From the NCBI GenBank assembly GCA_946699065.1, contig CAMPDV010000945.1, forward strand, positions 62,001-126,000: DNA of 64,000 nucleotides. The letters are read 5' to 3'. A program made the translations under genes and the position numbers. Below are positions 1 through 64,000 of this stretch, one piece after another (position 1 is the stretch's first letter; each line of letters opens with the position of its first letter). This stretch comes from Loxodes magnus. Its lineage: Eukaryota > Ciliophora > Karyorelictea > Loxodida > Loxodidae. The notes beneath the pieces were generated by a model, which was not told the DNA's origin, did not search any database, and was given only the letters and a program-made list of their open reading frames with translations.

Positions 1-501
1 TATATCTAATAGCATAAAACATAATAATTTCTATAATTAAGGTAATAATAATTAAGATTATATATTATATTTAATAAAAAGTAAAGCATAAGATAAAAGA
101 AAAACTTATTTTAACTAGTTAACTTTATTTAAATTATATTAGTTGTATTATCTAATTTCTACTATTCAGATACTCACTATATTTAGCAATTATAATAAAA
201 TGTCTTAATGAACTAAAGAAAAATTAAGTTTCTAATTATTTTAATAAATCTATTTGAAACTAAAATTAAGACAAGCTCTAATAACTATAAAAAGACTAGA
301 TTATATAATAAGAATAAAATAAAGCTAAAAAATTATTAATCAAAAATGTAATAATTTATCTGAATTAATTATAAGCCTTTAGCTTTAACTTAGTTACATG
401 TCTTTAAGATTTTAAGTCTAAGAATTATCTTTATTTATAAGGTATTTTAGTAGATAAAATTAAGGCTAAATTTTTAATAATGCTAGATGTTGCTGTTAGA
501 A
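1..501. repeat. Terminal direct repeat, left copy
   Basis: Bases 1-501 recur as bases 63500-64000, an offset of 63,499; every block I compared was identical. The match runs into both edges of the window, so its true length cannot be seen. It may reflect a circular or wrapped contig, a long-period tandem repeat, or an assembly overlap. It ends just inside the start of the 487-1116 gene. Confidence 0.95.
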
Positions 502-1116
502 AATAAAATTGTAGTTAGTTAAAATTATTCAGGATAAGCTAGCAGGACTAATATGATTAAAAACTAGATGATAATCTTAATTCCTAAAATCTAATAAAAT
601 GAGGAATTCATTAAATCGACCAAAATAAATTATACCTAAAAAATTAAAGAAAAGTAAAAACTATTTAAGTTAAAGCCGAAATTTGAGAAGGCAATTCTGA
701 AGAAATTTCCTTCAAAAGCTGAGAAGTTATATGAAGAAACTAATTAATAATTAAATTTTAGGAAAGATAAATAGCATAGAATTAAAAGATTACATGAGAG
801 GGACAAAAATAACGAAAATAATAATTTAGAGATAATTAAATTACTACAAAATTAAAAGAATACATAAATCTATTGAAAAGTTATTCTGTGTAATTTTCAG
901 CTAGATATCAGCACTAAAAGAAGAAAGAAATTTTAAATGCTGAATATTAACATGACTATGAATAGAAAACTAGAAAAAAAGGCTGAAAAACCTCAAAATC
1001 AAGTAATACAAGTTTAAAATGAGTAGAATTAGGATTCATTATATTACTGTAGAAATTCACAGAAAATAAATTAGCACAGGAATTAGCTCTATTTGCGACT
1101 TCTAAAGAAATTATGA
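487..1116 (+). CDS. Basic, Lys/Gln-rich protein of about 209 residues, function unknown
   Basis: Under the TAA/TAG=Gln, TGA=Trp code one frame runs from ATG (MLLLENKIVV) to a TGA at 1114-1116, exactly 210 codons. The protein is basic and helical (PSKAEKLYEE, LHERDKNNEN), with a YYC..H-type patch near the C-terminus that recalls, but does not complete, a zinc knuckle. A Trp codon TGA lies inside (residue run IYWKVIL). An alternative upstream ATG at 200 exists in another frame and looks less protein-like. It converges on the minus-strand region ending near 1130. No family recognised. Confidence 0.5.
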
Positions 1117-1129
1117 TAATTTTGAGTGT

Positions 1130-1830
1130 GTTTCTTTGGTTTATTTAAGCCTTTAGCGTTTTTCAAACCTAAATTTTAATTTAATTTTTCCTTTTTTTAT
1201 CAAAAAGCTAATTATGCATTTCTTTAATTCTTAAGTACTTCCCTTTCCAATTTGTACATTCTCATAGTTCTTCTATTTCTTAACATTGTAAGTTTTACAT
1301 TAAAAATCCCAACAGTTGAAGAAATATAATATCTTAAGAGTCTTAAGATATTAATATTTGTGAGCCAATGAAGACTAAATTATATTAATAGGTAATTATC
1401 TTCCAGTACCTATAGATATTTATTTACTTACTTAAAATTTTGACAATTCAGTTTTCTCTGATTTATTATAAACTTTAATCTCTTTATTAAAACTTTCTTA
1501 AATTGATGGATTCATTATTTTTACTATCTTAGCATTTAAGATTCTTATAGCTTTATGCTTCTAATCTTTCTAAATTTATAAATACTTACTCTTTTATTAT
1601 TTGAAGAATCATGCTATATAGATTGTCTTTCGTCTTTTTTATACATTATATTGTTCCATCTTTCATAAATTTTATTCTTCATTTTAGCTCTAATAGGATA
1701 TTTCAATAGGAATGTTTAGTTGTATATGTAAATATTCAGGCTAAATTCTTTTTGGAAAATAAAGTCTTCAAATATCTATTTCCTGCTTACTTGAAAAGCT
1801 TAAACCACCTCATTAAATTTTTAATAAATT
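1130..1830 (-). CDS. Unrecognised coding region, approximate limits
   Basis: On the minus strand the ciliate code gives a long coherent frame with normal charge balance, for example PSIQESFNKEIKVYNKSEKT and ENVQIGKGSTQELKK. The start is not fixed; good coding character is lost above about 1830-2000. It converges with the 487-1116 gene. I see no domain, signal peptide or membrane segment. Composition is the only evidence, so the limits are rough. Confidence 0.35.
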
Positions 1831-1949
1831 AAGATTTCACTGTAATGAAGGTTACTTATGAACTCTTTTCACAAGCTCTATTTTAATAAATAGACACTTA
1901 CATTTTTTAAATTTTTTAATTAAATTTATTAAAAAAGGAAAAGCTGAAC

Positions 1950-3660
1950 CTTAACTTACTAAAGCAAGGTAAATAATTATCTTCTTAATAAAAATTACTA
2001 AACTATCTTATTAGCTGTAGAGAATAAATGTTATTATAAGAGAGCTATAGAATCAGTTAAGTCTTCTATTTTTTGTGATATTATATTAAAAAGCAAGTTG
2101 TGACAGTTAGTATATAAGATTGAAAAAAGAGATTTAGTTCTTAATAGAATAATATAAACATTAGAAGTAGCAAGTGAAGATTAAGATAAGAACACTTTAA
2201 TACCCTTAATATGTACATTTATAACCTAATTGAAAAGAAACTTAAAGGCATAAATTTCAAGCTCCTCTTAGGATTCTTTGCATGGTATCATGCTGAAAAT
2301 CGAACCTTAAAAATAACAGAAATTAATTTGAAAGTTTTAAATTAAATTCAAGGATTTTATAATTGTGAAATCTCAATAGGCCGGAATATCAAGAACTCAA
2401 AAATTAAAAATAACTAAAAGGGAGTAGAAGTGGAAAAAGGAAAAGTTTAAGATCATAATATAGATATGAAATAATGTCTTAAGCTTACAAGTTAAATTTG
2501 ATTTATCTAATAATTTTTAATTTATTGAATTATTTAGAATAAGATCATTAGCTTGCTTGATTATCTTTCAAACATTATTTAAATTTAAATCTTCTAACCA
2601 TAAACATTAGATTCAAATAATAGTATCATCTTAATATAAATAAGGGTTTATTAAAATAATAATAATGAGACTCAAGTTTAGATAAAGAGAGTTAGTATAA
2701 TTTAAGGATAAGGAAAATAATAATTAGTAGACTATTAAACTAAAAGTACTTCTATTAATTAATATATTAATATATCTTCAATTTAATATACATCTTAATT
2801 AAATTAAAGAAAACTTCTTATTTCACTTTAATTTAAAAAAATTAACTGGGAACAATCAAAGTTTGAATCCCTTAGAAATTTTAATTAACATATTATCTGC
2901 GTCTAAACTAACTGAGAAGCTATTCCAAAATTAGAATTGGCGACTTAGCTTATTAAATAAGAGTGATTATGATAATTTGTAAATAAGAAAGTTTAAGTCA
3001 TAAATCTAAAAAAAATTAATAGATATTACAAAATTAAAATCTTAAGACTTTAAGGATTTACTGAAGCCATTGAAACTATTTTTATTTGAAAGAGAAAAAA
3101 TATTAATTGGGCAGAATAAGTATAAAGCACTATAAAATATTCGCTGAAAGTAAATTTAAGAAGTATAAAATAAGCAAGAAGAAAGTATTATAATATGATT
3201 AAATTTCATTTAGAGATTCAGAAAAATCTTCACAAAAAGAAAGGAATGCCTCATTAAATAATTTGCAAAAATGACAAAAAATAGATATAGAAAAATAATT
3301 TAAGACCATAAAAATGAGCTACAGCTTTCAATTCTATAAATGGAAAGAGAAAAATATAATTTAAAGAAAGATATTTAATGTAATAAAAAATATAGGAAAT
3401 AAGACAATTAAAATTAAATCAATCTAGAAAGCCAATTTTAATTTTCTCTAGTAAAATTCTGTTAGCATGTACTGATAGGAAATGACTGAGGGATTTTTAT
3501 CAACTATTTCACAAAATTATTTAAGATATCTTAAGTTTAAATTAGGATTATAAAACTTACCTTTGGATCTTGCAAAAACTGAAGAAATTTAAAAAGATAA
3601 ATGCCAGAATATAAAGTTTAAATTTAACTATATTTAAGTTATTATTCTTATCAATCTTTA
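1950..3660 (+). CDS. Gene P: helical, Lys/Gln-rich protein, function unknown
   Basis: One frame (codons such as TTA at 2011 and 2842) reads through about 570 codons with TAA/TAG as Gln and TGA as Trp, for example IQTLEVASEDQDKNT and LNPLEILINILSASKLTEK. Predicted largely alpha-helical; no catalytic motif seen. The start is uncertain, with no clear ATG in frame near 1950. From about 2490 on it is copied in inverted orientation at 18.99-17.91 kb; bases before 2490 are not, so the right copy lacks the N-terminal part. The gene is followed at 3690 by a GC-rich insertion that may have altered its 3' end. Confidence 0.5.
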
Positions 3661-3674
3661 AAATTTAAACTTTA

Positions 3675-4630
3675 TAAATAATAAATAAATTATATAAAAT
3701 GGTAGAAGGATTCAAGAAAGGCTTTTATACAACCTCCTAAAAAGGGGAGAGAAAGTAAGAACCCTCGTCTCTGACTGACGCGTCTTCTTCCTAGAAATAA
3801 TCCTCTTCTCAAAACCTTCAAGAATAATAGACTCAACTAGGAACTTCAAGATCAGCTTAAAAGATGGGATGAAAGCGCCAAAAGGCTACCTCGATGACAC
3901 CAACTGAAGAGGAAGGACCTATAAAGGTGCTGGAGACGCAAGAAGCAGCAGCCGTGCGAGAGTTTGCGATGCCACAGTTCCAGGAAGAACAGGCATAAAT
4001 TTTAGTCGCATTCTCTGACCTGAAGGAGGAAGTAAAGAAGCTACGATTAGAGAATAGAGCTCTAAAAAATCAAGTTACTGAGCTCAAGGAATGGAAAGAA
4101 AGCTTCTGGGAAGTCTACGATCGAGAGCAAAACACTTTCTTCAGGGAAATGGGATTGCTACAGCAGAGAACAACTGTGCTTGAAGAGAACAACAAGTAGC
4201 AACAGTAGACAATTCAAGATCCAATGGACATAGAAGGAGCTATTAATTTACCGAGGAATCCAGACAAGAAATGAATTAGGAACAAACCAATATGTTTTGT
4301 ATGCAAACAAACTGGACATAAATATAGACAATGTTAGAAATTGAGATTAATTAAATAATAGTACTAGAATAGAAAATAATAAGAAAAATAATAGTACTAA
4401 TATTAGGATAAGATTAGACGAGAATTCTGTAACTAATTTTATCCGTCAGGAGGTCAAATCTACAAACCGAAGTGGTATACAATCTAAGGCGACTGAAGAA
4501 AGAGTCCTGAAGGGAGCTGGTTCCAGCCAGGTTATCAAACTGGTCCTGTGAACACGAGGTTGAAAGTCCTCCAAGTTCACTAAACTCCAATTTAAACTTT
4601 TTAATTTTAATTTAATAAATAATAAATAAA
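3675..4630 (+). mobile_element. Insertion A: GC-rich retroposed element carrying a Gag-like gene, looks whole
   Basis: A 926 bp segment (3690-4615), clearly richer in GC than its surroundings, interrupts the left arm. It is flanked by 15 bp direct repeats TAAATAATAAATAAA (3675-3689 and 4616-4630), whereas the right arm has only one related copy between the matching flanks. That is the signature of an insertion with target-site duplication after the inverted duplication arose. It carries one long plus-strand gene and ends in an AT-rich tail. No terminal repeats of its own and no polymerase gene are visible. Likely young, because the target repeats are identical. Confidence 0.8.
3699..4578 (+). 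CDS. Gag-like coiled-coil protein with CCHC zinc knuckle (insertion A)
   Basis: From ATG at 3699 one frame gives a Ser/Thr/Gln-rich N-terminus (residues 1-95), a coiled coil (SDLKEEVKKLRLENRALKNQ), a short acidic linker (PMDIEG) and a CX2CX4HX4C knuckle, CFVCKQTGHKYRQC, at 4293-4334. A Gln-rich stretch and an aromatic C-terminal part (GGQIYKPKW, GSWFQPGYQTG) follow. Gag and LINE ORF1 proteins use such knuckles to bind nucleic acid. Several Gln residues are TAA/TAG and Trp residues are TGA (KKWIRN, GDWRKSP). There is no in-frame TGA at the end; the stop may be a TAA near 4579. The same architecture occurs at 35131-35988. The frame looks whole. Confidence 0.8.
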
Positions 4631-4666
4631 AGAAGCACTAAATAATTTATAACTACTAAATGCATT

Positions 4667-5013
4667 TAATTATAAGGAAATGCCTATAATTAAAAAGATG
4701 GTGGGAGCTGAGATTGACCTTCTGAATCATACTTTCTGGTTTTATGGCTAGGAACAAGTTCCTTTCCTGTCGCTGAGAAAGTCCCTGGTCAAAGTCAACC
4801 TTTGCAAGGGAACGCCTTCCTCTTGATTATCCACTCCTGGTAGGGGCTTGAAGACTGGCTGCCCATAGCGATGGAGCTCCCTGGCAGCTGCTTTTCGAAA
4901 GCAACAGGATATCCCCGTTATCCCATGAAGGGAGTGTTGGGGTCGTTAAACTGCAAGAAGTTGCAGTCCAAAAACTCTTTTAGTTTAAAATTAAATATAA
5001 TTATAAGGAAATG
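4667..5013. mobile_element. Insertion B: short GC-rich element with target-site duplication
   Basis: A 315 bp segment (4683-4997) near 50% GC sits between two copies of the 16 bp TAATTATAAGGAAATG (4667-4682 and 4998-5013). The right arm has the target once, near 17800-17810. Like insertion A it begins close to an AAAATGGTxG-type sequence and ends in an AT-rich tail resembling A's (AAACTC...TTTAGTTTAAA against AAACTCC...TTTAA), so the two may be moved by the same machinery. Too short to be autonomous. Confidence 0.75.
4690..4985 (-). CDS. Partial protein encoded in insertion B
   Basis: The minus strand of insertion B reads as a convincing Pro/Gly/Ser-rich protein fragment of about 100 residues, for example FNDPNTPFMGQRGYPVAFEK, SSSPYQEWIIKRK and KGWLWPGTFSATG. 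The style resembles the aromatic C-terminal part of the Gag-like proteins in this window, but no alignment is demonstrated. The plus strand of the same stretch is also open from an ATG at 4698 (MVGAEIDLLNHTFWFYG), and I cannot exclude it. Start and stop are not defined; probably a fragment. Confidence 0.4.
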
Positions 5014-5795: not shown

Positions 5796-5799
5796 AAAT

Positions 5800-19613: not shown

Positions 19614-21893
19614 TCATATGATTTTAACTTCAGAAAGTGCTGAAGTTAATCAAGGATCTTTTAGTATTTTCTTGACATTTGGTCGTTTGCTAGAGTTTAA
19701 TACAAGCATTCTATTTATAATAGCCTTTGAAATTTCGATCAAGTATTCTCCTAATGTAAAATCACTTTTGATAATCTAACTGTAAAGCTCTTTGCCGTTT
19801 TTCCTCTGAAAGAGATAAAATCCATTAAAGCTGACAAAAATAAGTACTCTAATCGCTCAAATATATTCTTGTAAGCCGCTATGCTCTTTATCTCCAATTA
19901 CTTAAGGTGACATATAACTAAAAGGGCATCAAAACATTTCTACCTTCTAACCAGGTGGAATTTTTGTTGAAAAGCCAAAGTTAATAAGTTTGACGCCTAA
20001 CTAATAATCCGATTTATTGTTCTAAAGCAGAAAATTTCCTAGTTTAATATCTCTATGCGCAATGTTTAAATCATAGCAATAATCCAGAGCTTATAGCAGC
20101 TACTTAATTATCATTTTTGCGATTTCTTCTGGAATCTGCGTTTAGTTTGTTTTTGAGAAATGTATACAATTCAGGTCCATCCATATATTTAGTTACCAGA
20201 TTATTTGCTTATTTTAACTAACTACCTCTTATAGCTTCGCTATGTTAGGATACCTTAGCTTTTGTAGTACTAAAATTTCTCATTTACTGATTTCATTCTA
20301 TGTGTATCCATAAGCTTAAACTTTTCATATACTTTTATAGCCACTTTTTGTTCACTGTACTTGTTTTTTCCATAAATCAGAGACGCATAAGCACCACGTC
20401 CAATTAATTTCCCTAGGCAGTAGTTATTTAGTGAGATTTTTCTCCCTGTAAAATTGCTGAAGGATTTAGAATCAGCTTATATAACTCATTTATCAGCTGG
20501 TTTTTCTTTCTCTACTTCATTGTTCTGAGCAAAATTTAACTGCCTCATATTGTATATTCCTGGATTATTTTTTCTTTTATTATCTTCTTCTAATTTTGAA
20601 CAAAATACTTTGCTTAGATTTAATTTGTTGTATTTGATAGGAGACATTTTTGTTATTTATGGAATAAGAGAAGACCTGAAACTGGTATCAGAAGTAAAAG
20701 ATGGAAATTAACGATGTAGATTTCACTCTGAACCTAAGCGGCTGATGTTATTTTCTGCTTTCCTATGTAATTAGCTCTGAAAGCCTAGTTTATTGAATGT
20801 AATTTAAGGCAGCTGCTTGATTTCCTCACTATTATTCTCTTCTTTGGCAGTCTATATTGGAGTAGCTCTTATTTCCTCTTAGCTTTCCTTTATACTCTCT
20901 AATATATTCTCAAAGTAATTATATTCTACTTAACTTCTTTATACTTCTTCAGAATTCGTTAGAGACTTGTTTCCTTTTCATTATTTTTGGAATTTGATAC
21001 TTCTGCTTCTTTGGTGATTTCATTATATCTAAAAAAAGATGTTCAATTAAGTACTTAGCTAGGTTGCCTTGATAATTACAAAGGTATTTTTTAACTATGT
21101 ACCAGATAAAGGGCGTTACTAAGCTTTTTGCCTCTGTTTGAAAATCTATTTGCTAGGTATAATTTACTATGGTTAAACGAGACAATCTTGTTGATATCTC
21201 AAAGATAATATTCTTTCCTCTTCACAGTGCTAGAATTAGACTTTTAAATAGCTACTAGAAATTAAGGAATTAAGTATACCTCTTCATTGAATTTTAAATT
21301 TTTCCCTACAGTTTATTTAAGAGCAGTCTTATTAGAAGGCAAGCTACTTCTAACTCCTATTCCGTTTCCATTATTTACAATAAATAATCTTTATGGTAGT
21401 AAGTTGTTGAACTGTCATAGCAGAGAGTTGTTTTATGTCTTATTTTTTTGAATGTGATAAGTAAATGATTCTAGAAATTAGAGTTGAATGTAGCTAATTA
21501 TTTACTATTTTATCTCTAGTTGAATATTTAATTACCTAAATAGAAGAATTAAGCGATAGATGTAGATTTTATTTTCTAATTATTATAATTGCTCTTCAAT
21601 TCCATTTTTTTAATAGATTTGTTTTTTATATTTAATATTGCATGAAAAATTAAGACTGTTGCATTAAGTGTATTTGTATTTTCTTTCTTTATTCTTGTAT
21701 TGCTACTAGATACTAGATATAAAGGCTATCCTTCAAATTTATATCCTTCTTATTGCTAATTTTGCACTGTATTTGAATTCGTTTGCAAGCATTTAGTTTA
21801 AGAACTTGAATTTTCTATTTGAATATTCTACAGTTAATATTCAAATAAGTAATGCTTAATTAATAAGGCTATATAAATATAAGCTATATACAT
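19614..21893 (-). pseudogene. Ser/Thr protein kinase gene with long N-terminal region; NFG in place of DFG, several frame changes
   Basis: ATG at 21893 opens an N-terminal region of about 400 residues (ENSSSQTKCLQTNSNT; EEQLQQLENKI; EEVQRSQVEYNYFENILESI). A C-terminal kinase domain follows: GRGAY glycine loop, VAIKVYEKF (catalytic Lys), LVTKYMDGPELYTFL hinge, AHRDIKLGNFLL (catalytic loop), then VKLINFGFST where DFG is expected, a PE-like SPQ, and XI RPNVKKILKDPWL. Two invariant Trp positions (YIWAIRV and DPWL) are TGA. The Asp-to-Asn change would remove the Mg-binding residue. About five single-base frame changes occur (near 21610, 20960, 20285, 20200 and 20125). Probably a decayed CAMK/ULK-like kinase or pseudokinase. 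TGA at 19616-19614 is the likely stop. Confidence 0.7.
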
Positions 21894-35130: not shown

Positions 35131-35988
35131 TCAACAGTGCCAATCTGGACACCGTTTAAAATAAGTTGTTTTATCAGCAACATTTCTCATCATTCTTGAC
35201 TTTCTAATGAAATTATCTTCACTAAGGCCTTCTCAGTTTCTTTGATTTCTTGTTCTTATTATTTCAAAAGGTACTTCACATCATTTTCTTCTGTAAATAT
35301 CTCCATGCTAGTTGCAATAGAGCCTCTAGTATTTTGCTTATTCTTTATGCCAAAATTTTTTCTTGAAATTCTAAAATTTTTAGCAATTCTTGTACAAATG
35401 TCACTTACTCTTACAGTAGTAGCATTTTAACCTTACTTATCTCATTGGTTTTCGATTTATAACCTCTTTTTATTCTATCTCCATCTAATTTGTCTAATTA
35501 GTTATGTTTGTACTAATATTGTTTTGCTTAATAAACTCCAACTCTTGTTTTTATACGATATTTCCAAGCCTTGCTGTTTCTTATCTATGTTCAGTTTAAA
35601 TGTTCCAATATGCTTGGAGTTCCCTTTCTTAATTAATAATTCTAATCTCTAAGTTATCTTATCCAAGCAATAATAAGTTTCTTAGTTCTTAATTTTCCTA
35701 CTTAAGCACTTTAATCTCTTCCTAGAGATTGGATATTTAAAATACTAACTGTTAAATATTGATTTCCTTTTTAATTATCTTTGATGGAAGTTCTTTTCCT
35801 GTTATTATATTAGATTCCTTTCTTTTTATTACTTTAGGAGGTGTTTATTATAGTTATTAGGTTCTTTATTAGTTTTGTAAGTGAGGAGAAGAAGACTCTT
35901 GATATTTTTTTTATGCCTGCTTTTTCTCTAGAGCTTTTTTCTCTTCTTTGCTCAAGAAAAAGCCGGGAACAAGATTTTAAGACTCCAT
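35131..35988 (-). CDS. Gag-like coiled-coil protein with CCHC zinc knuckle, stand-alone, looks whole
   Basis: ATG at 35988 to TGA at 35133-35131 gives 285 codons in one frame. Order: basic head (MESQNLVPGFFLSKEEKKAL), Gln/Pro-rich stretch, coiled coil (ISNLQEEIKVLKQENQELRN), acidic linker (NQMEIEQKE), CX2CX4HX4C knuckle CYYCKSKWHLYKNC with its first Cys codon at 35424, then an aromatic tail (YCNQHGDIYRRKW). Insertion A has the same order and matching words (FCNQFYPSGGQIYKPKW). One knuckle Trp is TGA, yet the frame also ends in TGA. No polymerase or terminal repeat is seen around it. Such proteins bind nucleic acid and form particles in retroelements. Confidence 0.75.
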
Positions 35989-39959: not shown

Positions 39960-40032
39960 TCCACATTAGTCTAGCAGGTTAGGATATTCGGCTTTCACCC
40001 GAAAGACCCGGGTTCGAGTCCCGGATGTGGAA
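39960..40032 (+). tRNA. trnE(uuc): tRNA-Glu (anticodon UUC)
   Basis: Cloverleaf: acceptor TCCACAT/ATGTGGA (39960-39966 with 40025-40031), D arm around TCTAGCAGGTTAGGA, anticodon stem TTCGG/CCGAA with loop CTTTCAC (anticodon TTC, reads GAA), and T arm GACCCGGGTTCGAGTCCCGG containing the B box GGTTCGAGTCC. The discriminator base is A at 40032; CCA is not encoded. No intron. The arms stand out as the only GC-rich island for several kb. A T-run follows at once. Confidence 0.97.
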
Positions 40033-42109: not shown

Positions 42110-45100
42110 TAGCTTTTTGAATATTCAAGTGTGCTTACTTGACCCAGCTCTATAATCCTTACCTATTATTTTATTAAAAGGAAGGATTTTGTTTATATAT
42201 CCCCGTCTTCTTTTTTCTAGTATGCTTTTAATAAAATCTTTAATTCATGCATCTATTGAGCTTCTCTGATCTATTTGAAAAGACCGAATTCAATTTTCAA
42301 ATTCAAAATTACCTCAAACTATTTTGAATAAATTTAGTTTGGTCTACATAATATTTATTTAGGTTTAATTTTGTTCTATCGTATTTAATTTTTATTACAA
42401 TTCTTCTCTTTCTTATTAATATTATTCGCATATCTCAATTATATGGGCCTCATCATCTATCCCATTTCTGCACATATTACATATGTTATTTTCTATTAAA
42501 TGCCTTACTTTCATTGTCTGTGCTGCACCGCTACATTTAGCTCTTAATCTGAATAGATAACAAATTTCTTATTTTCTATGCTTATTATATCTTAGGTAAT
42601 TTGGAGGACCTTTTATAAAGGATTCAAGTCATTGGCTTCTATAAATAAAGGTTGTTGTCATGTTTTCCATGCGAGTTAAAGCCTCTACTTTATTATGGAA
42701 TTTTATAGCATCATTTATTATTATTTTTATTTTTTAACCATTTCACTCGTCTTGCATTAAAATTTGATCGTTTAATCGTAGTTTTTCTAGCACTTTTTAT
42801 GAGTAGATTTCAAATAAAAAGTTTTTTTATTTTGTGATTTAGCACATTCAACCATCCATAGTTGTTTCCTAGTTTAGGAGTAATTTTCGTCTGAACATCA
42901 GCATACGTTATCATAAATAGTATTACATCTTAGTAAATTGTAATTCATTTTCAAGTATCTCGTTTTGAATACAGAATGGAGCATCTATTATTGCTCTAAG
43001 AGATCTTCGTTGAATTATTTCTAGTTTCTCTAGAATACTTTGTCCTATGAATTCTTCTATAAATGGAATGCATTCACTTCCATATCCAAAAATTTAGTTT
43101 ACAAAGGCTTTTAGTATCATTTATGCATTATAGGCGGTGATACCTTTTTATATTGTGATCTTGTTTAAGATTCATGCTTGTGTTTTTTGACATTCAGAGA
43201 TTCTAGATTCTAAGTGCTTTTCAAAAGATATTTCTTCCTGTAATAAATGTCCAATATATTTAAAAGTTTTCACCCTTTCTATTTGCATTCCATCTATATT
43301 TATTATTGTTTAGTTTTTTATACTATTTCCATTTCATAGTATTCATTTCGTTTTATCTGCTATTTACATTTTGTATTTTTTAGATCATGCTGTTAGAATA
43401 TCACTTAGTTCTTGTATTTGTTCCGGTTGAACTATGCATGCTATATCATCCGTGTAAGCCAACGTACCACAATATCTTTGCCTTATACAGTATTCTGTTT
43501 CGAGTTCCATTGTTATTCCGATCTATTTTTATCTTAATTCTTTTAAAAGTATATTTATTATAATATTAAAAAGATTAGGGGAGCATGTACATCCTTATTT
43601 AAAACCTTTCTCCGTTTCAAACTTATCTGATATAAGATCATTTATTTTCAATTTGATGTCCTCTTCTCTATATATTTCTGCTAGTAATTTTATTAGTTTT
43701 TTTGGGACCTCGATTTCATTTAGGAAATGTCATATATCTGATCTTATTACAGAGTCTAATGCTTTCTTAATATCAATAAGTATTACTACTACTTCTGTGT
43801 TGCTTTAGTAGAGCCATTCTTATATTGTCCTTATATTGAAGATTTGTTGGGCGCAAGATTTACTTGGTTTAAACCCATATTATAATTCATCATCCTGTCG
43901 TATTAAATATGAATTTAGTTATTCAAATATTCATATGTCTATAATTTTTAAGATATGGTTAATAAGAGAAATGGGTCGATAATTCATTGGATCATTTGAG
44001 CTTCCTTTTTTGTGTATAAGTACTATGTATGATTCTTTAATTTTTTTAGGAATAGTTCCTATCTCTAATATTTTTTTAACTAGTTAGGCAATTACCATTA
44101 TCAATTACTTCCCTCCTGAGATAATTGTACCTGTTTATATTTGGTCAGGCCCGGCTGCTTTTCATTGGGCTAGTTTTCTGATGCATTATTCTATATCAGT
44201 AATCTTGATTTCTATTGATTGCTAATTTTTGAATTAGTTTGGTAGATTGTTGTTTCCATTCTTATAAAGATTTTATCAGCTTATTTTGAAATGTTGAATG
44301 TCTTCTTCATTTACTAATGTTCATGGTGCTATTTTCCCTCTTTTAAATCATCTCCTTAATCCTTTTCATGTGTCATTAAGGTTCCCCTTATTGATTTTGT
44401 CGAGAAAAATATTGAATTAGTTTTTGCAGTCTTATTTCATATGTAATCTATATTTGAGCCTAAGTTCCTATCTTAGTTTAATTTCACGAATTGTTTCTAG
44501 CTCGCCTTGTCTTATTAATTGCTTTACTTTTTTTGCTTAGCTTTTGAATCTTTTCCTTGCTTACTTCGTTTCATCTGAGTAATAATGTTTTCTTGCTGTT
44601 TAGGTAGTGTGACCACATACTAAGACTGCGTTTTAATAGATTTTTTCTTATCATTTGACATAAAATTCTTCAGTGCTTAGATGTGAGAACCGATTTATGT
44701 CTGTTTCCTCAAACTATTTCTGAAATTTTTCTTAGACCAATTCTTGTTGGAGTTTTATAAATCAAATTCTCTTTTTCTACATATATTCACGACTTTTTTT
44801 AACTATTTGTAATATTAATCTTCCAGTTTGATGATCTCCTATTGTGCTGCGTTGGTAAAATTAAGTGTTAATGATATTGGGTGATATAAATGGATCTGTT
44901 AAGAAATAGTCAATTTTGAATTTGCTTCTACCTTAAATTGTGATGTATGTTGGATCTTGTGTTGGGTCTTTGCATGTCAGATCAAATTCTTGCATAAAAT
45001 TTAGTAAATGTTACCCAGCTATATTTAGTTCATTTGGTAGAAATTATGGTATGTGAGCATTGAAATCACCCACTACTATTATTTGAAGTCCTAGACCGAT

Positions 45101-45507
45101 TGCTGTGTGTACAAATTGTCGTAAACCGTCATAGAAAATATCCAGTTGTGCTTACTCTTAGGTTGTCGGAGCATAAATGTTTATTATTGCTAATCTGCTA
45201 TCCAGATTTATACCTATTATACGACTGCCCTGGTATAGTTCTATTTGGTTGAGACCCTCTATTTCTATTTCTTTTACTCTATCTAGTCATTTTTCTCTGA
45301 TATAGAGTGCTACTCCTTTACTATGATTTGTGTCTAACTTTATACACGCTCTGAATCCAAATAGTTGTGGCATATCTTCGAATTACGCTACATGTATTTC
45401 TTATAACGCCATAATATCTATCATTTTTCTTCCATAAACTTTAGTAGTTAAGCTTTGTTTGATCTTATTCCTCTTATATTGGAGGTGCCTAAATTTATTC
45501 TTTTCAT
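42110..45507 (-). CDS. LINE ORF2: APE endonuclease, reverse transcriptase, C-terminal CCHC
   Basis: ATG at 45507 (MKRINLGTSNIRGIRSNKAQ) begins the endonuclease, with MALQEIH, SKGVALYIREKW, IVVGDFNAHIP and SKFKIDYFLTD as its motifs. The reverse transcriptase has NYRPISLI, IDIKKALDS (motif A), GFKQGCTCSPNLFNI (B) and AYTDDIACIV (C, YxDD). The C-terminus has CNMC...EAHIIEIC, the CCHC typical of LINE ORF2. From 45424 to about 42110 the frame is single. At 45424-45430 the N-terminal frame meets AAA-TGA-TAG and the sequel is in the -1 frame: a one-base loss in an A-run, or frameshifting. Length about 1,130 residues. Confidence 0.85.
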
Positions 45508-45509
45508 TC

Positions 45510-47008
45510 TATTTGAGAAGAGTTATTTATTGAGTTTATTTGGGTATGGCTGATTTAATCTTAATCTTGTTCTATATTAGATTAGTCGCATGTGATATTG
45601 ATTTTTGGTGCTATTACTTGTTCAACTTTTTGTAGGTTATTTTGTGAAATTATTTGTTAAGATTTAAATCCATAGTCTTCAAGGGTTTTATTCTTTTTTT
45701 AAATTCAAGTATATGTTTTCTGTCGAGATTATTACTGATTAGTTCTTTAGTTTCATCAGTGTTTTGGAGCTCAGCTTTGTTTTCTATGTGTTTTTTAAGT
45801 GAGATATTTCTTTTATCTTACAACTTATGTTATTTATTCTTGTAGTTATATATCACTCTTCTTACCATTTTTCGTCGGCTTTAGAAGTTTGTCTTGCATT
45901 ATAAAGCTTGTACTAGAAGCTCATGAGATTAGAAATAATTCCATTTTGTTTAAAATTAGGAATATTATTTTATTGATTATTGAGGAAATTACTTAGGATT
46001 CTCTTACATAACTTGTTCTTCTTTTTTAATTCCTATTTTTGCTTCTTCTTTCACATCCTGCAAAGAATTGCTACTTAGCTCAATCTACATCACATTGTTC
46101 TGAAGATTTTCTGCATCCTTTATAATTGCTTAGATTGATTCCCTTCTTTTACACTGATATGTGCTATGTCCTACTGCTTAGCAGTTCTCGCATTTTCATA
46201 TAGCTGAGTGATTTAGTCTAACCGTCTTGTCCAGAATTTTTATTGAGTTTGGGATTTTCTAAGTGTCTTCTTGTCTTTCAAGTTGCAAGTATACAGTTAT
46301 TTTGCCATTTAATCAGGTTGTATTTTCGTAGGTATTAATGACCGTTTAGATAATTTTACCAAATTTTTTTAGCTGTACTTCCGTTTGGGCCGTTGTTAAG
46401 TCAATATCTAGGTTATAGTGTACTGGGTAGTTTGAGTAGTTTTAATATTAGTCTATATTTCTTTTTTCAATTGGTATAACCAACGTCTTATATTTCAATT
46501 TAGTTTTTTATCCAAACTGTTCATATGCTTCTGAGTTTTTAAATGCTATAAGTACTATTCCTGTTTGTAGGACTTAAACCCTTGCAATGTTTTAATCGTA
46601 ATTCTATTTCAGTTATTTAAAAATTTCTTGGATTACTTCATCTTATCCAATAATTTAATTATTTATGTTTTGATTGCCGTATGCCTGTTAAAGGTAGGAG
46701 TTAAAGTAGGCGACTCCTATTAATTTGGAGAAATTTTACTGAGCATTTCATGCACAGTTTGCAGATCCTATTGCTTATTCGTGCCTAATATTTGGACAAT
46801 TTCTTCATATTCATTCTTTTGTACTGTTGCTAGAGCCGTTAGTTTTTTCCTATATTGTCTCTCGTTTTTTTTGGTTATAGATTTGTTGTTGTCTTTCCAT
46901 TCCTCCTTATAGTGTTTTACTTACTTCAGAAGTAATACTATTTTTTAGTGCTTTAGTACATTATAGTTTCCAGCGTATTTTTGGGGTGAGATGAGAAGGC
47001 TCCTTCAT
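45510..47008 (-). CDS. LINE ORF1 protein with CCHC zinc knuckle
   Basis: ATG at 47008-47006 (MKEPSHLTPKIRWKLQCTKA) opens one frame through an RRM-like/helical region (LQTGIVLIAFKNSEAYEQFG) to the knuckle CENCQAVGHSTYQC starting at 46192. A Glu/Lys/Gln-rich tail follows (LQNNVMQIELSSNSLQDVKE). ORF1 proteins bind element RNA. Gln is often TAA/TAG and Trp TGA. The stop is not evident; the frame stays open to the ORF2 start at 45507 and is then in phase with the rest of ORF2. The rearranged copy conserves the central part. Confidence 0.75.
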
Positions 47009-47219: not shown

Positions 47220-47415
47220 TTTTTTTAAAAATTAATAATGTAATCTGAAATGTCCTAGACAGCTAAATGTCTTTAGTGTCAAGGAGATTTTAATGGGTAG
47301 ATGTAAATCCCAATGTTGTTACCTTGCTAACACAACATATGCTATACCTGCGTCCAGGATTAGTTTTACAAAAATTAGGCAATCAAATGCGTTTACTAAA
47401 ATTGCTAAAAAGTTC
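47220..47415 (-). CDS. Weak small membrane-protein candidate
   Basis: A minus-strand frame starts MNLMNFLAILVNAFDCLIFV and goes on VKLILDAGIAYVVLARQQ, with no TAA/TAG/TGA for about 40 codons. It lies between the LINE 5' end and the divergent ubiquitin-like gene, where a promoter would also be expected. Unrecognised and short. Confidence 0.25.
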
Positions 47416-47483
47416 ATAAGGTTCATCCTATAAATTTACAATAAGACACTTAGTTACTCAAGAGTCTTGAACAAAAGAACCTC

Positions 47484-48293
47484 ATGGACAATATAACGAC
47501 GTTATAGAATCAATCGTCAAGAGTTCGTCAAGCATAAACTTTATTGTCCGAGGTCTACAGTCTTTTTACCTAGTAGTTAGTAAAGCACGTGAATACTTAT
47601 TTGTTTAAGGAGAATATCAGCTTACAAAGACAGTTGGTTTAGCAGGATAAGTAAATCTAATAATAGTTGAGGTCTTTCAAAATCTAGAAATAGCTGATGG
47701 ACAAAAAAGGGAGTAGCTAGTAGTAGATCATTATTTAAGACTTTCCATAAAGTGAGCAATAAGTTTCCAAATTGATAGCTGATGTTTAAAAGACCATCTA
47801 GAAGAGCAATCAGGTATCGGTTAAAGTTTTTGAGGAGCTAGACTCTTGCAAGTTTAATCTAGCTTAAGTGACATAGGAAAATAGTTACTTGAAGAATGAG
47901 ATGTAAAACTTGAGTAGTTAAATCTAAATTCAATAATAGCAGTTATCATCTATGCAAGTTCAGTTAAGCTAATAGTAACAAGTTAAGCCTTAGGTGATAT
48001 AGCCTTAATAGATTCAATAACCTCAAAATATCTCGGTTAAGCTTTAGGACATCTAGATAACTATAGTATCGCCAAACAATAGAACGGTATCGTTATCAGT
48101 AAAACAAGAGACAACTATCGGTTAGATAAAGCAATAGATCTAAGCTTAAACTGAGTTATTGCCTGCCGGTTTGAGTATCGTTAAGAATAAGGTTATCTTG
48201 GATGACGGTTAAACAGTAGCGAGTTAGAATATGTTGAATGGTGAGAGGTTGCAAATGGAATTTAGTAAGTTCAAATTTAATTTTCTTAAATAA
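47484..48293 (+). CDS. Coiled-coil protein with C-terminal ubiquitin-like domain
   Basis: ATG at 47484 (MDNITTLQNQSSRVRQAQTL) opens one uninterrupted frame of about 268 codons. First comes a coiled coil (LIADVQKTIQKSNQVSVKVF, FEELDSCKFNLAQVTQENSY), then a Gln/Pro-rich linker, largely TAA/TAG (QPQQIQQPQNISV). The last 75 residues have the ubiquitin fold pattern: TVSLSVKQETTIGQIKQQIQ, LPAGLSIVKNKVILDDGQTV and NMLNGERLQMEF, matching ubiquitin's I44/G47/D52 region. No C-terminal diglycine, so probably not a conjugated modifier. Not one TGA is used. In-frame tandem TAA at 48291-48296 is the likely stop. GTAAG repeats begin right at the 3' end. Confidence 0.8.
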
Positions 48294-48529: not shown

Positions 48530-48799
48530 TCATTTTAATAATTATTACTTAATTTAGGTAAGTTTCATTTATAAAATTAACACTTAATATAGGTAAGTTT
48601 CATTTTAATAATTAACACTTAATTTAGGTAAGTTTCATTTTAATAAGTATTACTTAATTTAGGTAAGTTTCATTTTAATAATTAACACTTAATATAGGTA
48701 AGTTAAATTTTAATAATTAACACTTAAGATCGTAAGTTTCATTTTAATAATTAACACTTAAGATTGTAAGTTTCATTTTAATAATTAACACTTAAGGAT
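48530..48799. repeat. 35 bp minisatellite with GTAAGT core
   Basis: About eight units of GTAAGTTTCATTTTAATAAT followed by TAACACTTAATTTAG, 35 bp. Looser relatives start near 48270, with GTAAG every 25-60 bp. Units drift into the 32 bp family at 48800. The bases just before GTAAG vary (TAG, ATC, ATT, GAT). Confidence 0.9.
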
Positions 48800-49119
48800 G
48801 TAAGTTAAAGTTTAAGGTGAAAATGAAGTTGGTAAGTTAAAGTTTAAGGAGAAAATGAAGCATGTAAGTTAAAGTTTAAGGTGAAAATGAAGTTGGTAAG
48901 TTAAAGTTTAAGGAGAAAATGAAGCATGTAAGTTAAAGTTTAAGGTGAAAATGAAGATTGTAAGTTAAAGTTTAAGGTGAAAATGAAGATGGTAAGTTAA
49001 AGTTTAAGGTGAAAATGAAGGGAGTAAGTTAAAGTTTAAGGTGAAAATGAAGATGGTAAGTTAAAGTTTAAGGTGAAAATGAAGCATGTAAGTTAAAGTT
49101 TAAGGTTACATTTAGAACG
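48800..49119. repeat. 32 bp minisatellite with invariant 29-mer and variable triplet
   Basis: Ten units at exact 32 bp spacing; GTAAG starts at 48800, 48832, 48864 and so on to 49088. Each unit is a 29-mer (GTAAGTTAAAGTTTAAGGTG then AAAATGAAG) plus three bases that differ from unit to unit: TTG, CAT, TTG, CAT, ATT, ATG, GGA, ATG, CAT. The 29-mer itself is almost invariant (only GGTG/GGAG). Since 32 is not a multiple of 3, it is not a coding repeat. Confidence 0.95.
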
Positions 49120-54350: not shown

Positions 54351-54357
54351 TTTAAAT

Positions 54358-58365: not shown

Positions 58366-58369
58366 TAAA

Positions 58370-59704
58370 ATAATTTTAGACATCTATAACTGCAAGAATT
58401 GCTTCCTTCAATGAGACTCTAATAAATGTTTTTAATGTTTTTTAATAATAATCTTGATCTCATCAATTTTTAATTATTCTTGTTTCAGTTTCTCTTTTAT
58501 GTCTTCCTTTTTTACTTTTTCCATTTCATATAAATCTAAACTTTTTGACAAGTGAAAACGATTTTTAAGGGTAAAAGGAGGTTTATAACTTTTTGTAGGA
58601 GTTGTATGTGGAATTTCTGATCGGAAAAGGCAGGGATGGGAGGAGTAGGCAATGACAAGAGAAAACAATTTTTAGTTTTAAAATATTTCATCAAAATTAA
58701 GGTTTATTTATTGAAGTATGTTTCTTTTTTTCACACTTTTTAGATTTAGAATTTTAGAATTTTTTCAATTACATATTCAGATTTTTTTAATCTCTTTTTT
58801 AGTTATAATACTGTCTCAAATCTCTTGCAGCTTACTTTCAGAATATTTTTTTAGCCCTTTATTTTTTTTATTGGCTTTATTTTCTGATTAGTTTTTTCAT
58901 AAATTTTTCCGATTTTAAAACTTTTAAGACATATAGCTTTTTTTGATTTTAAATTTTTCTCTTTGTTTTTTTAAGCGCTAATGAGTAAGTACTTCTTTTC
59001 TTTAAAGTAATTAATTTATTTTTTTGAGTATTAACTTTTTTTATATTTTAAATCGATTTCACTCTTCCTTCGTGACTACTGAAATAACTTTTATTTAAAT
59101 ACATTTTAGGGTTTTACTTCTATTTCTTCTTCGTTTTTTTTTAATCTTTCTCTGTTCATTTAAGTGTTTATCTTTTTTATTAAATCCTTTATCGCAGAAA
59201 CTTTTTCTCTTTATTTTCTCAGTTGCCTTTTTTTCCTCCTTATTCTTATTCTTATGTTATTTTTCTTTTTCTTTTGTACTTATTTGATCATAGAATTTTT
59301 TGCAGTTTCTTCACTCAGATTTCTTTCGAATCACGAAAGTTCATTTCTTCACTTTTTTTTTGTTTTATCTTCTTTTTCTTTTACTTATTTTTTTTATAGA
59401 ATGTTACTTTCTGCGCTTGTCTAGATTCTTTTTAGTTTTTCCAGTCTATTTTTTTGATCTTTTTGTTTTTTAGCTAGTTTTTTTTTTCGGAATTTTTTAT
59501 TATGTTTTTTAAATTTTTTTCATGATGGTCTTAGTTCTCTTTCTCAAGTCATAAGATCAATTTTATTCCTTCCACTAGGCTGAGTTTTACCATTCGCTTC
59601 TCATTATCCTTTCTCAGTTTCCTAACCTCTGCTTGGTGGTTTATCACTATTTAATCAGCCACTCCAAGCTCATCTGGCTAGAATTTTTAATTTCGGACAC
59701 ACAT
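58370..59704 (-). CDS. Basic coiled-coil protein, possibly microtubule-associated
   Basis: An ATG at 59704 starts MCVRNQKFQPDELGVADQIV, followed by NHQAEVRKLRKDNEKRMVKL and a very Lys-rich coiled coil (KNRLEKLKRIQTSAESNILQ). The C-terminal part reads AYSSHPCLFRSEIPHTTPTK, YKPPFTLKNRFHLSKSLDLY and EMEKVKKEDIKEKLKQEQEQ. The PPF...NRF pattern before a charged helix recalls TPX2-type microtubule-binding motifs, but this is only a resemblance. At least one frame change lies in the A-rich part. Its start overlaps the end of the NACHT frame by a different frame; which gene owns 59690-59704 is unclear. Confidence 0.45.
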
Positions 59705-62560
59705 ATGCCCGATAGATCCAAAGATGTAAATTAGTAATTCATCCGATTCAATATCGTTATACTATTAGTTGCCACTATTTATAAAGAAACATTAGTACTG
59801 GACATTCTCACTATCTCCAATATATTTTATTACACACTTGAATTATTATTTGCAGAATTTGAATTATAAATCTCTCCCACAAACTATAGTATCTCCAGAT
59901 TGTCCACTATCAAAAATTTGTTTATATTGTGAACCTCTATTGCTTATGCCTTAGCGGATGAAACTAAATCTATAATATTTTTTGCCACATAGTAATCTCT
60001 TATCAATGCATGAATAAACTCAAACCTCTTTTTATTATTCTATTCCTTTGTCTATATCAAACGCCCTATATGGTTTTAATCGTCCGTAAACTACTCTATC
60101 CACTTTTGATTCACTTCATCAAAGCTTGATATCTCCACCGAACCCTGTAACATCTCCCATGCCGCATTCACTTAGATAGTTTCAAACAACTTTATTTACT
60201 AGTTGAGCACCTTACTTTTTAAACCCTGATTTTACAATTTTTCTTAGGTTCTTTTGTTTCACTAAACTATGAAAATCTCATATATTCTAGACTTTTAAAC
60301 TACTTAACCACTTTTTAAATAATCTAATATCTCTTCCTCACTCAAACAAATATATAGCAGAAAGGGATTACTGATAATTTCATCAGACCAGGTATTCTCT
60401 ATATTAATGCCATCATCTCTTATATTTAAGATGCTTCCACTTGACTTGCACTTTATTATTACTGGTTCTTCTTAACTAGGACTTTTTCTATATATTTTTC
60501 TATCTAGCGATATCGAATGGCTTTATATACAGTTCCTATAACTCTTATAATTAAACTCTTTCGCTACTGTATGGTGAAAAATAATGTTGGTAATTTTTTC
60601 TTTTAATACATAATTTACCCTACATGTTATTATATATTTTGCCTGAGGATACTTTTGCTTTAATTTATTACTACTTATAATAGCCTTGCATTCTCCCAAC
60701 TCATCATACGCGTCAAATAAGAACAGAATCTTTCTAAATTTCAATGTCTCATTTCTTTCTATTTAATAATTATCTAAAGCAGATTCTATTAATTTGTTTT
60801 CGAATGCTTTTATAGTTGGGAGATACACATATATGGATAAGTATTCATGTTTCTAGTCTAGATATTTTAAGGCTAAAATCTTCAGGAACAAGGACTTTCC
60901 AGAACCGGAATCTCCCAGAAGTAATAATCCTGTCTTAGTATCGTTTTCTAAAAATTTCAAAATTTCAAGGTCAAGATCATCCTCAGCTTATGAATTAGGA
61001 TTAGGAGCGCAAAGTAAGCTTACGTAATATTCTTGCTTCTCCGAAACCTCTTCTTTTAAAGTCCTTATCATATTTTAATATATACTACTGCTAATGCCCT
61101 TAAATGCCAACCAATTCTCTTCTATTGTTTAAGTAAATAAAACAAAATGCTCTGGATCCATTAATAATTCTAGAATTATCTAACGCTCTTTTACATTCTT
61201 GCTTAAGTTCTCTTTTTTTAACTTAAATATTCTTTCCTTATAAGTGCAAGCTATTTGGTTCTTTTCTAAAGTCAATTCCAAAAATGTCTTCATTGCATAG
61301 TACCTTATCTACTAATTCTGTACTAGCTTACGGGTTTTTTATCATGTGTTATAGAAGATAGCATGCTCTAAATCTTAAGTCTATTTTTCTTTCAAAACAA
61401 TATCTCAAAATTGGTAAAAAATTTATTTTGAGTATTGTCTAAATAAATCACATGCAAGAGCATCTAAGACTCGTAATCTAATAATCTTTTTATAGTTGAG
61501 CTTCTAATTTACCCAACCTTTTCCTCATAAGAAAAACTCCTTTATAATAGAGATCGCTTCTGACCCTATAACTCCAACTTCAAACGTCAAGGCAATTATT
61601 CATTAAGCAACTTTTAAAATTTTACATAGAATTCCAAAATATTCGGTTTCTTTGCTATCTGGAATATTCTCCAGAATCATCAAACTAAATCTTAAGTACA
61701 AATCTGGTTCTGGACCTCCAATCCTATTTTTATTTTTATTTACTAACTTTAAGCTATCATTTATTTTTAAAATGAGCTCTTCTTTTGTTTTTTCATTTAT
61801 AAAGGAGTTTTACTCGTTCTTCTAAAGCAACACAGCCAATAACTCAGGAAGATTTCGTACAAGCTACTCCTTCAAGAGCTAAGACCATCCTTCAGCATAC
61901 TTATGGGAAATAATTTCAATGAATTGATTTATAAGAACTAATGGATCATTGATATTGGCAAACTTATTCTTTTGAATTGTTTGAATTCCTTGTAGAACTT
62001 TAACCATCTTTTATTCATTCAAGCCTTCTTTTAAGAGCTACAATCCTTCTTGATAATCTTTTGTTCCTTATTACCAAAAATTTGTTCATTTTCTTGATAT
62101 TTCTAACTTTTATCATTGCTTAACCCTTATTTTGATACTGGCTAATTACTCTACTTATCTTTATTTTTTTAATCTTTAAATTTTTTATCCTGAGAACCAC
62201 AACAATCTCAACTTTTAGCTTCATTCTTTTCTAAATATTTAGCTTATCTCTTTTATTAGAAATAAGCTTAATTTTTTAATCTATAAGATTCATTTAATTA
62301 TTCTAGCACTTTGTAATTACATGTCTTTTTGAATCAGCAAAATAAGAAATGTTTTGAAGGAAGTTATAATATTCAAATTGTTGAGATTACTATAAAGAGA
62401 TCTCTATCTAATTATTTGGAACTTGTTCATCTTATGAATCTAGGAAAGTTTAACTCTCTTTATGATTCTTGTATTCATATTCATTCATTTAATTACTTGA
62501 AGTTTAGCGTTCATCCCTTTCTAGTGTCTTTTGATGATTATTAATCGTCTTCATAAAGAA
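59690..62560 (-). CDS. NACHT-domain NTPase (STAND family), NLR-like
   Basis: N-terminal polar region (SNDKSQKYQENEQIFGNKEQ), a helical part (VLQGIQTIQKNKFANINDPL to ILELLMDPEHFVLF), then NACHT: Walker A LLLLGDSGSGKSLFLKILAL (about 60890-60920), Walker B RKILFLFDAYDELGE, sensor IITCRVNY, and the winged-helix end FEFIHALIRDYYVAKNI. The end reads TNSITILNRMNYQFTSLDLS, the lead-in that in ciliate NACHT proteins usually precedes pentapeptide or WD40 repeats, which are absent here. A single frame runs about 2.3 kb with one apparent base loss near 62060 (A-run). STAND NTPases oligomerise as signalling switches. Start uncertain; C-terminus probably lost. Confidence 0.8.
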
Positions 62561-62569
62561 AGGAGAGCC

Positions 62570-62930
62570 AAATCGGATTAAAAGAACATGTGACTTTAAG
62601 AATTCATTTTTCTAGCTTTATTACTGAAAGCCTTGATAGTTTCTCAGAACTTAACTGAAAAGATAGCAATTCGAATTGCAAATTGCAGTAAACATTTTAT
62701 TATTTTAAAGACTAAATTCTCTTAAATACCTTAAATTATATAAAACATTAAATACAATCAATTAATATTAGCTTTATCATCTTTAACTGTAAAAGCTAAT
62801 TGTCTAAATAATTAATAATTAAATCATTTTATACTCTAACTCTATAAACCTAAAACTAATTAAAGTCAGCTAGTTTTAAATTAAGTCTATTAAATAGATT
62901 TAATTCTTAAATATAGAAAAAAGAAAAAGA
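62570..62930. other. Intergenic stretch upstream of the NACHT gene
   Basis: AT-rich; would hold the divergent promoters of the NACHT gene and the small plus-strand ORF. No motif recognised. Confidence 0.4.
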
Positions 62931-62935
62931 ATCTA

Positions 62936-63190
62936 ATGAATCACAATTAAAAAGCTAATAAGTAGATAAATAGCAAAGTATCAAATTGAAAAACAGCTAA
63001 TTTATACGTGGTAAGCATTAAATTTATTAATTTAATAGGCTTTGCTGATAGCATCTTATTTGATATCCAAGTAACTTATAAAATAGCCAGATATTTACTT
63101 ATTTTTGACATAGCTTAAAATAAATCTAATAATTAAGTCTAAAATCTTTTATTTTCTATTTTACTGAGAGTATTTTAAGTTTCTAACTGA
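62936..63190 (+). CDS. Small protein candidate of 84 residues
   Basis: ATG at 62936 to TGA at 63188-63190, exactly 85 codons: MNHNQKANKQINSKVSNWKT, then a hydrophobic part (VVSIKFINLIGFADSILFDI) and a polar tail. One Trp is TGA inside the frame. It could be a single-pass membrane protein; support is the ATG-to-TGA frame and composition only. Confidence 0.35.
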
Positions 63191-63199
63191 AAAATATAA

Positions 63200-63499
63200 T
63201 TAAGATATTAATTGTAATACTAATTGAAGAAATTCTACATAATTAAAAATAAATAGTTCGTTTCAAAACAAATTCTTCCCTAAAAAAGAAAAATCTAAAG
63301 AAGACAGTCTTTTAATAAGCTCAAAAAATAGATTTAAACTAAAAAAGCTTTTTATTAGTTAAAGAAGGAAAATGATTACTATTCAATATATTATTTTCAC
63401 TAAAATTTCTTAATCATAAAAATTAAATAAATAAGCAAAAGAAGCTTATTATTCTTATTAAGAAAGCTTTTAAATAAAGTTTTAATAATAGTAGAATCA
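63200..63499. other. AT-rich intergenic stretch
   Basis: Between the small ORF and the terminal repeat. A/T-rich with a few AAGCTT words; no feature recognised. Confidence 0.4.
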
Positions 63500-64000
63500 T
63501 ATATCTAATAGCATAAAACATAATAATTTCTATAATTAAGGTAATAATAATTAAGATTATATATTATATTTAATAAAAAGTAAAGCATAAGATAAAAGAA
63601 AAACTTATTTTAACTAGTTAACTTTATTTAAATTATATTAGTTGTATTATCTAATTTCTACTATTCAGATACTCACTATATTTAGCAATTATAATAAAAT
63701 GTCTTAATGAACTAAAGAAAAATTAAGTTTCTAATTATTTTAATAAATCTATTTGAAACTAAAATTAAGACAAGCTCTAATAACTATAAAAAGACTAGAT
63801 TATATAATAAGAATAAAATAAAGCTAAAAAATTATTAATCAAAAATGTAATAATTTATCTGAATTAATTATAAGCCTTTAGCTTTAACTTAGTTACATGT
63901 CTTTAAGATTTTAAGTCTAAGAATTATCTTTATTTATAAGGTATTTTAGTAGATAAAATTAAGGCTAAATTTTTAATAATGCTAGATGTTGCTGTTAGAA
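63500..64000. repeat. Terminal direct repeat, right copy
   Basis: Copy of bases 1-501 at an offset of 63,499. The preceding bases (AGTAGAATCA) cannot be compared with anything because the window begins at base 1. If the contig is circular, the gene at 487-1116 lies downstream of this point again. Confidence 0.95.

Follow-up and report, generated by a model that had tools for sequence, protein, structure and literature searches.

The DNA analysed here, hereafter the window, is a stretch of 64,000 nt from the ciliate Loxodes magnus (assembly GCA_946699065.1, contig CAMPDV010000945.1, positions 62,001–126,000 of the forward strand), and its features are collected in Table 1. They include a non-long-terminal-repeat (non-LTR) retrotransposon, or long interspersed nuclear element (LINE), and the C-lobe of a protein kinase, both of which are crossed by in-frame TAA/TAG and TGA codons. 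The window is almost certainly repeat-rich nuclear DNA of L. magnus read in the ambiguous code published for this organism, in which TAA and TAG encode Gln and TGA encodes Trp inside genes and acts as the main stop near the end of the message. We describe how the three codons are used in the window and across the genome, and weigh whether TAA may serve as a second, minor stop.

Table 1. Features of the window
Feature	Position	Strand	Evidence and remarks
LINE ORF2 frame (approximate ends)	42134..45514	-	1127 codons: 21 TGA, 1 TGG, 55 TAA/TAG
RVT_1 domain of the LINE	43247..44017	-	Pfam 102.1 bits; YxDD motif is YTDD in translation
APE-type endonuclease, same LINE frame	44828..45424	-	Exo_endo_phos_2 PF14529, 42.2 bits; Exo_endo_phos PF03372, 35.7 bits
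CCHC knuckle upstream in LINE frame, possible ORF1	46151..46192	-	Pattern match only
Protein kinase C-lobe	19647..20282	-	Pfam Pkinase 123.7 bits; alignment to MARK4
RING finger and C-terminal ubiquitin-like domain gene	47268..48260	+	In-frame TAA/TAG, no TGA
NACHT STAND NTPase gene	59650..62100	-	Walker A GDSGSGKS; copy from a large genomic family
CCHC knuckle in GC-rich stretch (3700–4965)	4293..4334	+	Pattern; zf-CCHC E 0.074, under cut-off
CCHC knuckle with internal TGA	35383..35424	-	Pattern only
tRNA-Glu (anticodon UUC), not a suppressor	39960..40032	+	ARAGORN; Rfam 66 bits

Domain matches across in-frame stop codons

Read with the standard code, the window holds no long frames, as the initial annotation had pointed out: the longest open reading frame (ORF) with an ATG, GTG or TTG start has 95 aa, four reach at least 80 aa, and the longest stop-to-stop frame has 133 codons. 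Stop-to-stop frames of at least 80 codons number 11, compared with a mean of 12.6 (range 7–21) in 20 block shuffles. Searches against Pfam nevertheless reveal domains that extend across the three codons. The reverse transcriptase (RT) domain of the LINE, whose YxDD motif had been recognized from the letters alone, spans 257 codons that include 8 TAA, 1 TAG and 5 TGA, its longest stop-free piece being 45 codons. The kinase match of 212 codons crosses 11 TAA/TAG and 4 TGA, with a longest stop-free piece of 41. Two of these TGA codons had been placed at invariant Trp positions (YIWAIRV and DPWL), and the alignment to MARK4 bears out both (YI-TGA-AIRV and DP-TGA-L); the activation segment holds a third, and the fourth is at the border of the match. 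A ubiquitin match (27.3 bits, cut-off 25.4) crosses six TAA/TAG. The matches to RVT_1, Pkinase and ubiquitin cross the codons rather than lying between them, which is the opposite of what would have refuted the initial annotation; NACHT is slightly under its cut-off (25.2 against 26.7 bits) and crosses only two TAA/TAG and zero TGA.

Both the RT and the kinase domain, when scored under 10 codes, match best with TAA/TAG read as Gln and TGA as Trp. For RVT_1 (102.1 bits), the runner-up has TGA as Cys (99.1 bits), followed by Arg (97.9 bits), and reassignment of TAA/TAG gives 94.1 (Lys), 93.5 (Glu), 93.5 (Ser), 90.9 (Leu) and 88.1 bits (Tyr). For the kinase (123.7 bits), the scores are 115.6 (Cys), 113.5 (Arg) and 110.1 bits (Gly) when TGA is altered, and 123.1 (Glu), 121.0 (Lys) and 118.0 bits (Ser) when TAA/TAG are. 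TGA as Trp is thus the best meaning in both domains, and Gln is clearly preferred over Glu only in RVT_1.

Sense meanings across the genome

The genome (705,730,643 bases in 7,843 contigs) supports the same meanings. In a set of 136 scored kinase domains, the best of 5,592 candidates, 135 contain in-frame TAA, TAG or TGA. Column analysis of the top 68 of these 136 shows that three Trp-majority columns take 49 of 66 TGA codons and 81 of 110 TGG codons. Restricted to columns with a minimum of 20 sense residues, which leaves 48 of the 66 TGA, the comparison gives an 80-fold enrichment of Trp at TGA and an 88-fold enrichment at TGG. At TAA (4.3-fold) and TAG (5.0-fold) the highest enrichment is that of Gln, as it also is at CAA (6.2-fold) and CAG (4.4-fold). 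In-frame TAA/TAG are also found in histone H4, actin and the release factor eRF1, and four of nine histone H4 genes carry TAA or TAG at a Gln site. TAA/TAG as Gln and TGA as Trp are thus supported in the window by the scoring of code variants and genome-wide by the kinase columns. The claim of the initial annotation that all three stops are sense codons consequently holds for the meanings it gave, and falls short in omitting that TGA is the usual stop as well, as shown below.

TGA at gene ends

The ends of 120 genes were taken from families with recognizable C-termini or close relatives. TGA stands at 104 of them and TAA at 6, which together make 110 unambiguous ends; 4 are ambiguous and 6 unresolved, and a clear TAG is found at none. 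All nine histone H4 genes end with Gly-Gly-TGA. In the actin family (20 genes selected from 96 matches) 18 end with TGA and 2 with TAA. The 31 histone-fold matches comprise 11 H3-like genes, of which 9 end with TGA and 2 with TAA, and 20 others, of which 17 end with TGA and 3 have their ends outside the fetched stretch. Rab Cys motifs and CaaX boxes must be C-terminal, and in the Ras/Rab sample (60 of 150 matches, from the top 70) TGA accounts for 51 ends, 40 following a prenylation-type Cys motif and 11 at ends common to relatives. The remainder consists of two TAA, four ambiguous ends of the form CC-TAA-(0–1 codon)-TGA and three unresolved ends. Eleven of the 40 Cys-motif ends appear only in a shifted frame, which is taken to mean a short intron. 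In L220 and L226 an alternative frame gives CC-xx-TAA, and the frame conserved between both genes, which ends with TGA, was preferred; L213 has CC-TAA in a shifted frame and no relative for comparison, and was entered among the unresolved ends. Two CCK-TAG-TGA ends (L185 and L186) were entered as TGA. In the tails of 23 Ras/Rab genes TGA is absent from the last 20 codons (0/460) and from the stretch further upstream (0/388). As judged from these gene ends, TGA is context-dependent, Trp inside genes and the main stop at their ends.

The search for gene ends also showed about 40 full-length actin genes of nearly equal score, many of them on few contigs (C266, C711, C437, C707 and others).

Release factor and tRNAs

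Two eRF1 genes lie on contig C196, L010 identified by alignment to human eRF1 and L011 by its near-identical translation. Both encode RAQNIKS in place of TASNIKS and FLCENTF in place of YLCDNKF, and in both the Q of RAQNIKS is itself encoded by TAA. A further candidate, L009, was set aside, since by eye it resembles pelota.

On the tRNA side, the Rfam model gave 63 scored matches among 42,786 candidates in the genome. Ten of 30 loci from the matches listed are all tRNA-Lys(UUU), two of them with an adjacent tRNA-Ala, and include no suppressor; a single tRNA-Gln DNA query of the genome found no match. The tRNA genes of contigs C78, C103 and C158 are regularly spaced, at 1753, 527 and 1752 bp, and other loci scanned on C78 and C103 are tRNA-Lys(UUU), one with an adjoining tRNA-Ala. 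A tRNA-Trp(CCA) whose anticodon stem has 4 bp, a type that raises UGA read-through in reporter systems, is described for Loxodes in a 2026 paper (PMC13092985, in excerpt).

Observations that weigh against this reading

Several observations weigh against the assignments made so far. If TAA/TAG are taken as sense codons and TGA as the stop, the window has 21 frames of 300 or more codons, which is the number expected by chance (shuffle mean 19.25, range 14–23); since recoded frames reach such lengths by chance in AT-rich DNA, open recoded frames were dropped as evidence for the code and reliance was placed on domain matches that cross the codons. Iterated scoring of segments by codon usage was likewise abandoned, having drifted to composition so that no choice of frame was possible, and the codon signal was weak and patchy both by hidden Markov scan and by frame contrast, being strongest in the LINE and NACHT regions. 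The window kinase has NFG where DFG is expected and a frame break ahead of its C-lobe. Its N-lobe (about 20283–20440) lies in a different frame with no intron-sized gap between the two, which points to a probable pseudogene or assembly error, and because this showcase gene is damaged the genome-wide evidence is the better evidence. The same kinase separates Gln from Glu for TAA/TAG by only 0.6 bits. Lys and Glu are the most frequent residues in the TAA/TAG columns of the 68 kinases, just as in the CAA/CAG columns, so that Gln is indicated by enrichment alone; in addition, two TAA fall in one of the Trp-majority columns. No suppressor tRNA is present among 48 tRNA predictions, from loci that sample a tiny part of the genome. 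The set of gene ends contains near-identical copies (9 of the 20 actins, several histones and Rabs), and the 104 of 120 are therefore not independent cases. Finally, TGA as the only stop is at odds with the six TAA ends, which belong to two actin-related genes (contigs C10 and C193), two histone H3 variants (C34 and C327) and two Ras/Rab-like genes (L206 on C42 and L210 on C30).

TAA as a possible minor stop

The six TAA ends suggest that two codons may be both stop and sense, TGA as the major one (Trp/stop) and TAA as a minor one (Gln/stop, about 5% of the sampled ends), with TAG being purely Gln. This is the reading that we favour, by a narrow preference. Under strict NCBI table 27, in which TGA is the only stop, the TAA codons would instead be Gln, and the genes would continue into short extensions lacking conservation, contain hidden introns or be decayed, an account that is possible but somewhat doubtful. 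The two actin-related paralogues are difficult to reconcile with it: they have a common end, GKR-[VI]-LH-[SY]-KT-[FC], followed in both by TAA, and their downstream sequences are unrelated. GC content across these two ends falls from 0.30–0.44 before the TAA to mostly 0.18–0.34 after it. The H3 variants point in both directions. In L150 and L153 LTDM is followed by TAA, with TGA at this place in the related L151; L153 reads TAA-TAA-TAA, and TGA is absent from the 44 codons read past the first TAA, whereas L150 has a TGA four codons past its TAA, which weakens it as a case of a TAA stop and suits strict table 27. Among the Ras/Rab-like genes, L210 ends with Cys-Asn-Cys-TAA where its relative L197 has Cys-Asn-Cys-TGA, and L206 ends with a CaaX-like CLIF-TAA. 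GC content falls past both TAA codons (from 0.41 to 0.08 in L206 and from 0.29 to 0.22 in L210), similar to the drop past TGA in the others, which is a further point against strict table 27. The four ambiguous CC-TAA-(0–1 codon)-TGA ends belong to related Rab-like genes (L211, L229, L230 and L237), in a shifted frame, and are either Gln before the stop, giving a CCQx tail in keeping with strict table 27, or a TAA stop backed by TGA.

Codon counts in the 23 Ras/Rab tails are similarly divided. TAA and TAG number 8 and 23 in the last 20 codons, against 20 and 11 further upstream (Fisher p = 0.005) and a kinase baseline of 330 and 159 (p = 6e-6), both p values being optimistic because the tails include paralogues. 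This ratio agrees in direction with the L. magnus genome paper, where UAA and UGA, but not UAG, are depleted before stops (PMC11441545, in excerpt). The share of TAA near the Ras/Rab ends (8/460, 1.7%) is nonetheless close to that of kinase domains (330/17,410, 1.9%). The scarcity of TAA hence shows in comparison with TAG and with the upstream stretch but not with kinases, which counts against TAA as a stop, weakens that reading and favours strict table 27. The excerpted literature also sides with strict table 27: the L. magnus paper names UGA as the sole stop (PMC11441545), and a 2019 study gives UGA as the stop of all the karyorelicts it sampled and UAR as Gln for Loxodes (PMC6935857).

A code of the Condylostoma type (table 28), in which each of the three codons serves as sense and as stop, is very unlikely. 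It would fit the sense use of all three codons together with TGA, and probably TAA, also ending genes, and the CCK-TAG-TGA ends of L185 and L186 could be TAG stops, but TAG is found at none of the other 108 unambiguous ends. Moreover, the TAG directly before the TGA of L220 aligns to CAA in its relative L226, and TAG is commoner in the last 20 codons of the 23 Ras/Rab tails (23/460) than upstream (11/388). A pseudogene graveyard, in which the in-frame stops represent decay under the standard code, could invoke the frame break and missing DFG Asp of the window kinase, the many retrotransposon copies that are dead in general and the weak, patchy codon signal of the window, yet it is already contradicted and has a negligible probability, because decay would not put TGA at the Trp columns of 68 kinases or in-frame TAA/TAG into histone H4, actin and eRF1, and because among the RT matches listed, out of at least 131 in the genome, all 131 have in-frame TGA, TAG and TAA.

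Other features of the window

The LINE frame encodes Trp almost wholly by TGA (Table 1), as against 66 TGA and 110 TGG in the 68 host kinases. LINEs with Exo_endo_phos_2 and RVT_1 are described in the published L. magnus genome, and the window LINE has the same pair. Of three CCHC knuckles proposed by the initial annotation, all three are present by pattern and only one has a Pfam score, a weak one. The RING part of the RING and ubiquitin-like gene scores 23.6 bits with zf-RING_UBOX, under the cut-off of 25.2. Repeats comprise a tandem array at 30563–31297 (37-bp unit, about 20 copies), adjoining arrays of 35-bp and 32-bp units in a G-skewed stretch at 48523–49106, and a repeat of about 935 bp with three occurrences at approximately 54.6–57.1 kb.

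The NACHT family has 57 genome matches listed at 61–94% identity, a total that includes the window copy and a few fragments of a single copy. Of three paralogues tested, L118 and L121, but not L119, continue into at least 9–10 closely similar WD40 repeats of 42 aa each, with 54–62% identity one repeat apart. The signature Trp of these repeats is encoded now by TGA and now by TGG, in keeping with TGA as Trp. The end of the window copy differs from that of the WD40-bearing paralogues. The NACHT-WD40 layout resembles that of fungal NACHT-WD40 NLRs; a literature search for NACHT-WD40 proteins in ciliates, judged by title, found no publication on the subject. When the 33 near-complete copies among the 131 RT matches listed are compared with 55 of the 57 NACHT matches, six of the 33 have a NACHT copy 13.6–15.5 kb 5′ on the same strand (in the window at 43.2–62.1 kb, and on contigs C945, C678, C868, C333 and C83), and the window's own contig carries two such pairs, 61.5–63.5 kb apart. 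LINE and NACHT thus seem to lie together inside a large duplicated unit.

Discussion

The code described here is already known as the karyorelict ciliate code, NCBI table 27 (Swart et al. 2016, PMC4967479, in excerpt), and is stated for Loxodes in the excerpted L. magnus paper (PMC11441545). The present genes agree with that code, as used in Parduczia and Loxodes, in TAA/TAG as Gln, TGA as Trp inside genes and TGA as the stop at their ends; they differ in having 6 TAA among the 110 unambiguous ends, a stop for which the table has no place. The code of Condylostoma magnum (table 28) likewise has all 64 codons as sense and terminates according to context (PMC4967479, in excerpt), whereas here there is no clear TAG end and TAA ends are rare. 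In Blastocrithidia, too, all three codons are sense and TAA is also a stop (PMC12153298, in excerpt). TAA/TAG encode Glu in that code and Gln here, as indicated by the RVT_1 scores (102.1 versus 93.5 bits) and by Gln being the most enriched residue in the 68 kinases, a contrast that the window kinase barely resolves.

A small minority of karyorelict transcripts may reportedly use stop-UAA, according to the abstract of Seah, Singh and Swart in 2022. Given this mention and the published code, we regard the finding as already known. The excerpted literature contains no further statement on stop-UAA in karyorelicts or Loxodes. The present analysis contributes support at the level of the genome for TAA as a possible second, minor stop, drawn from related genes with different codons at one site.

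In the literature, UGA is described as being read as Trp when it is far enough upstream of the poly-A tail. A plausible mechanism is that eRF1 would outcompete tRNAs only towards the 3′ terminus of the message, and that genes would for this reason avoid, in their final stretch, any codons readable by eRF1. If TAA is a minor stop, the published depletion of UAA but not UAG just before stops would be tied to termination at UAA, and the specificity of eRF1 would provide a clean test. The stop set would then be UGA and UAA without UAG, which is found in neither table 27 nor table 28; bacterial RF2 has this same set. The cause would be sought in two changed regions of eRF1, TASNIKS (here RAQNIKS) and YxCxxxF. 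A gene finder using the standard code would miss genes of this kind, and a code that gives all codons a sense meaning and makes termination a matter of position tests how a cell distinguishes stop from sense.

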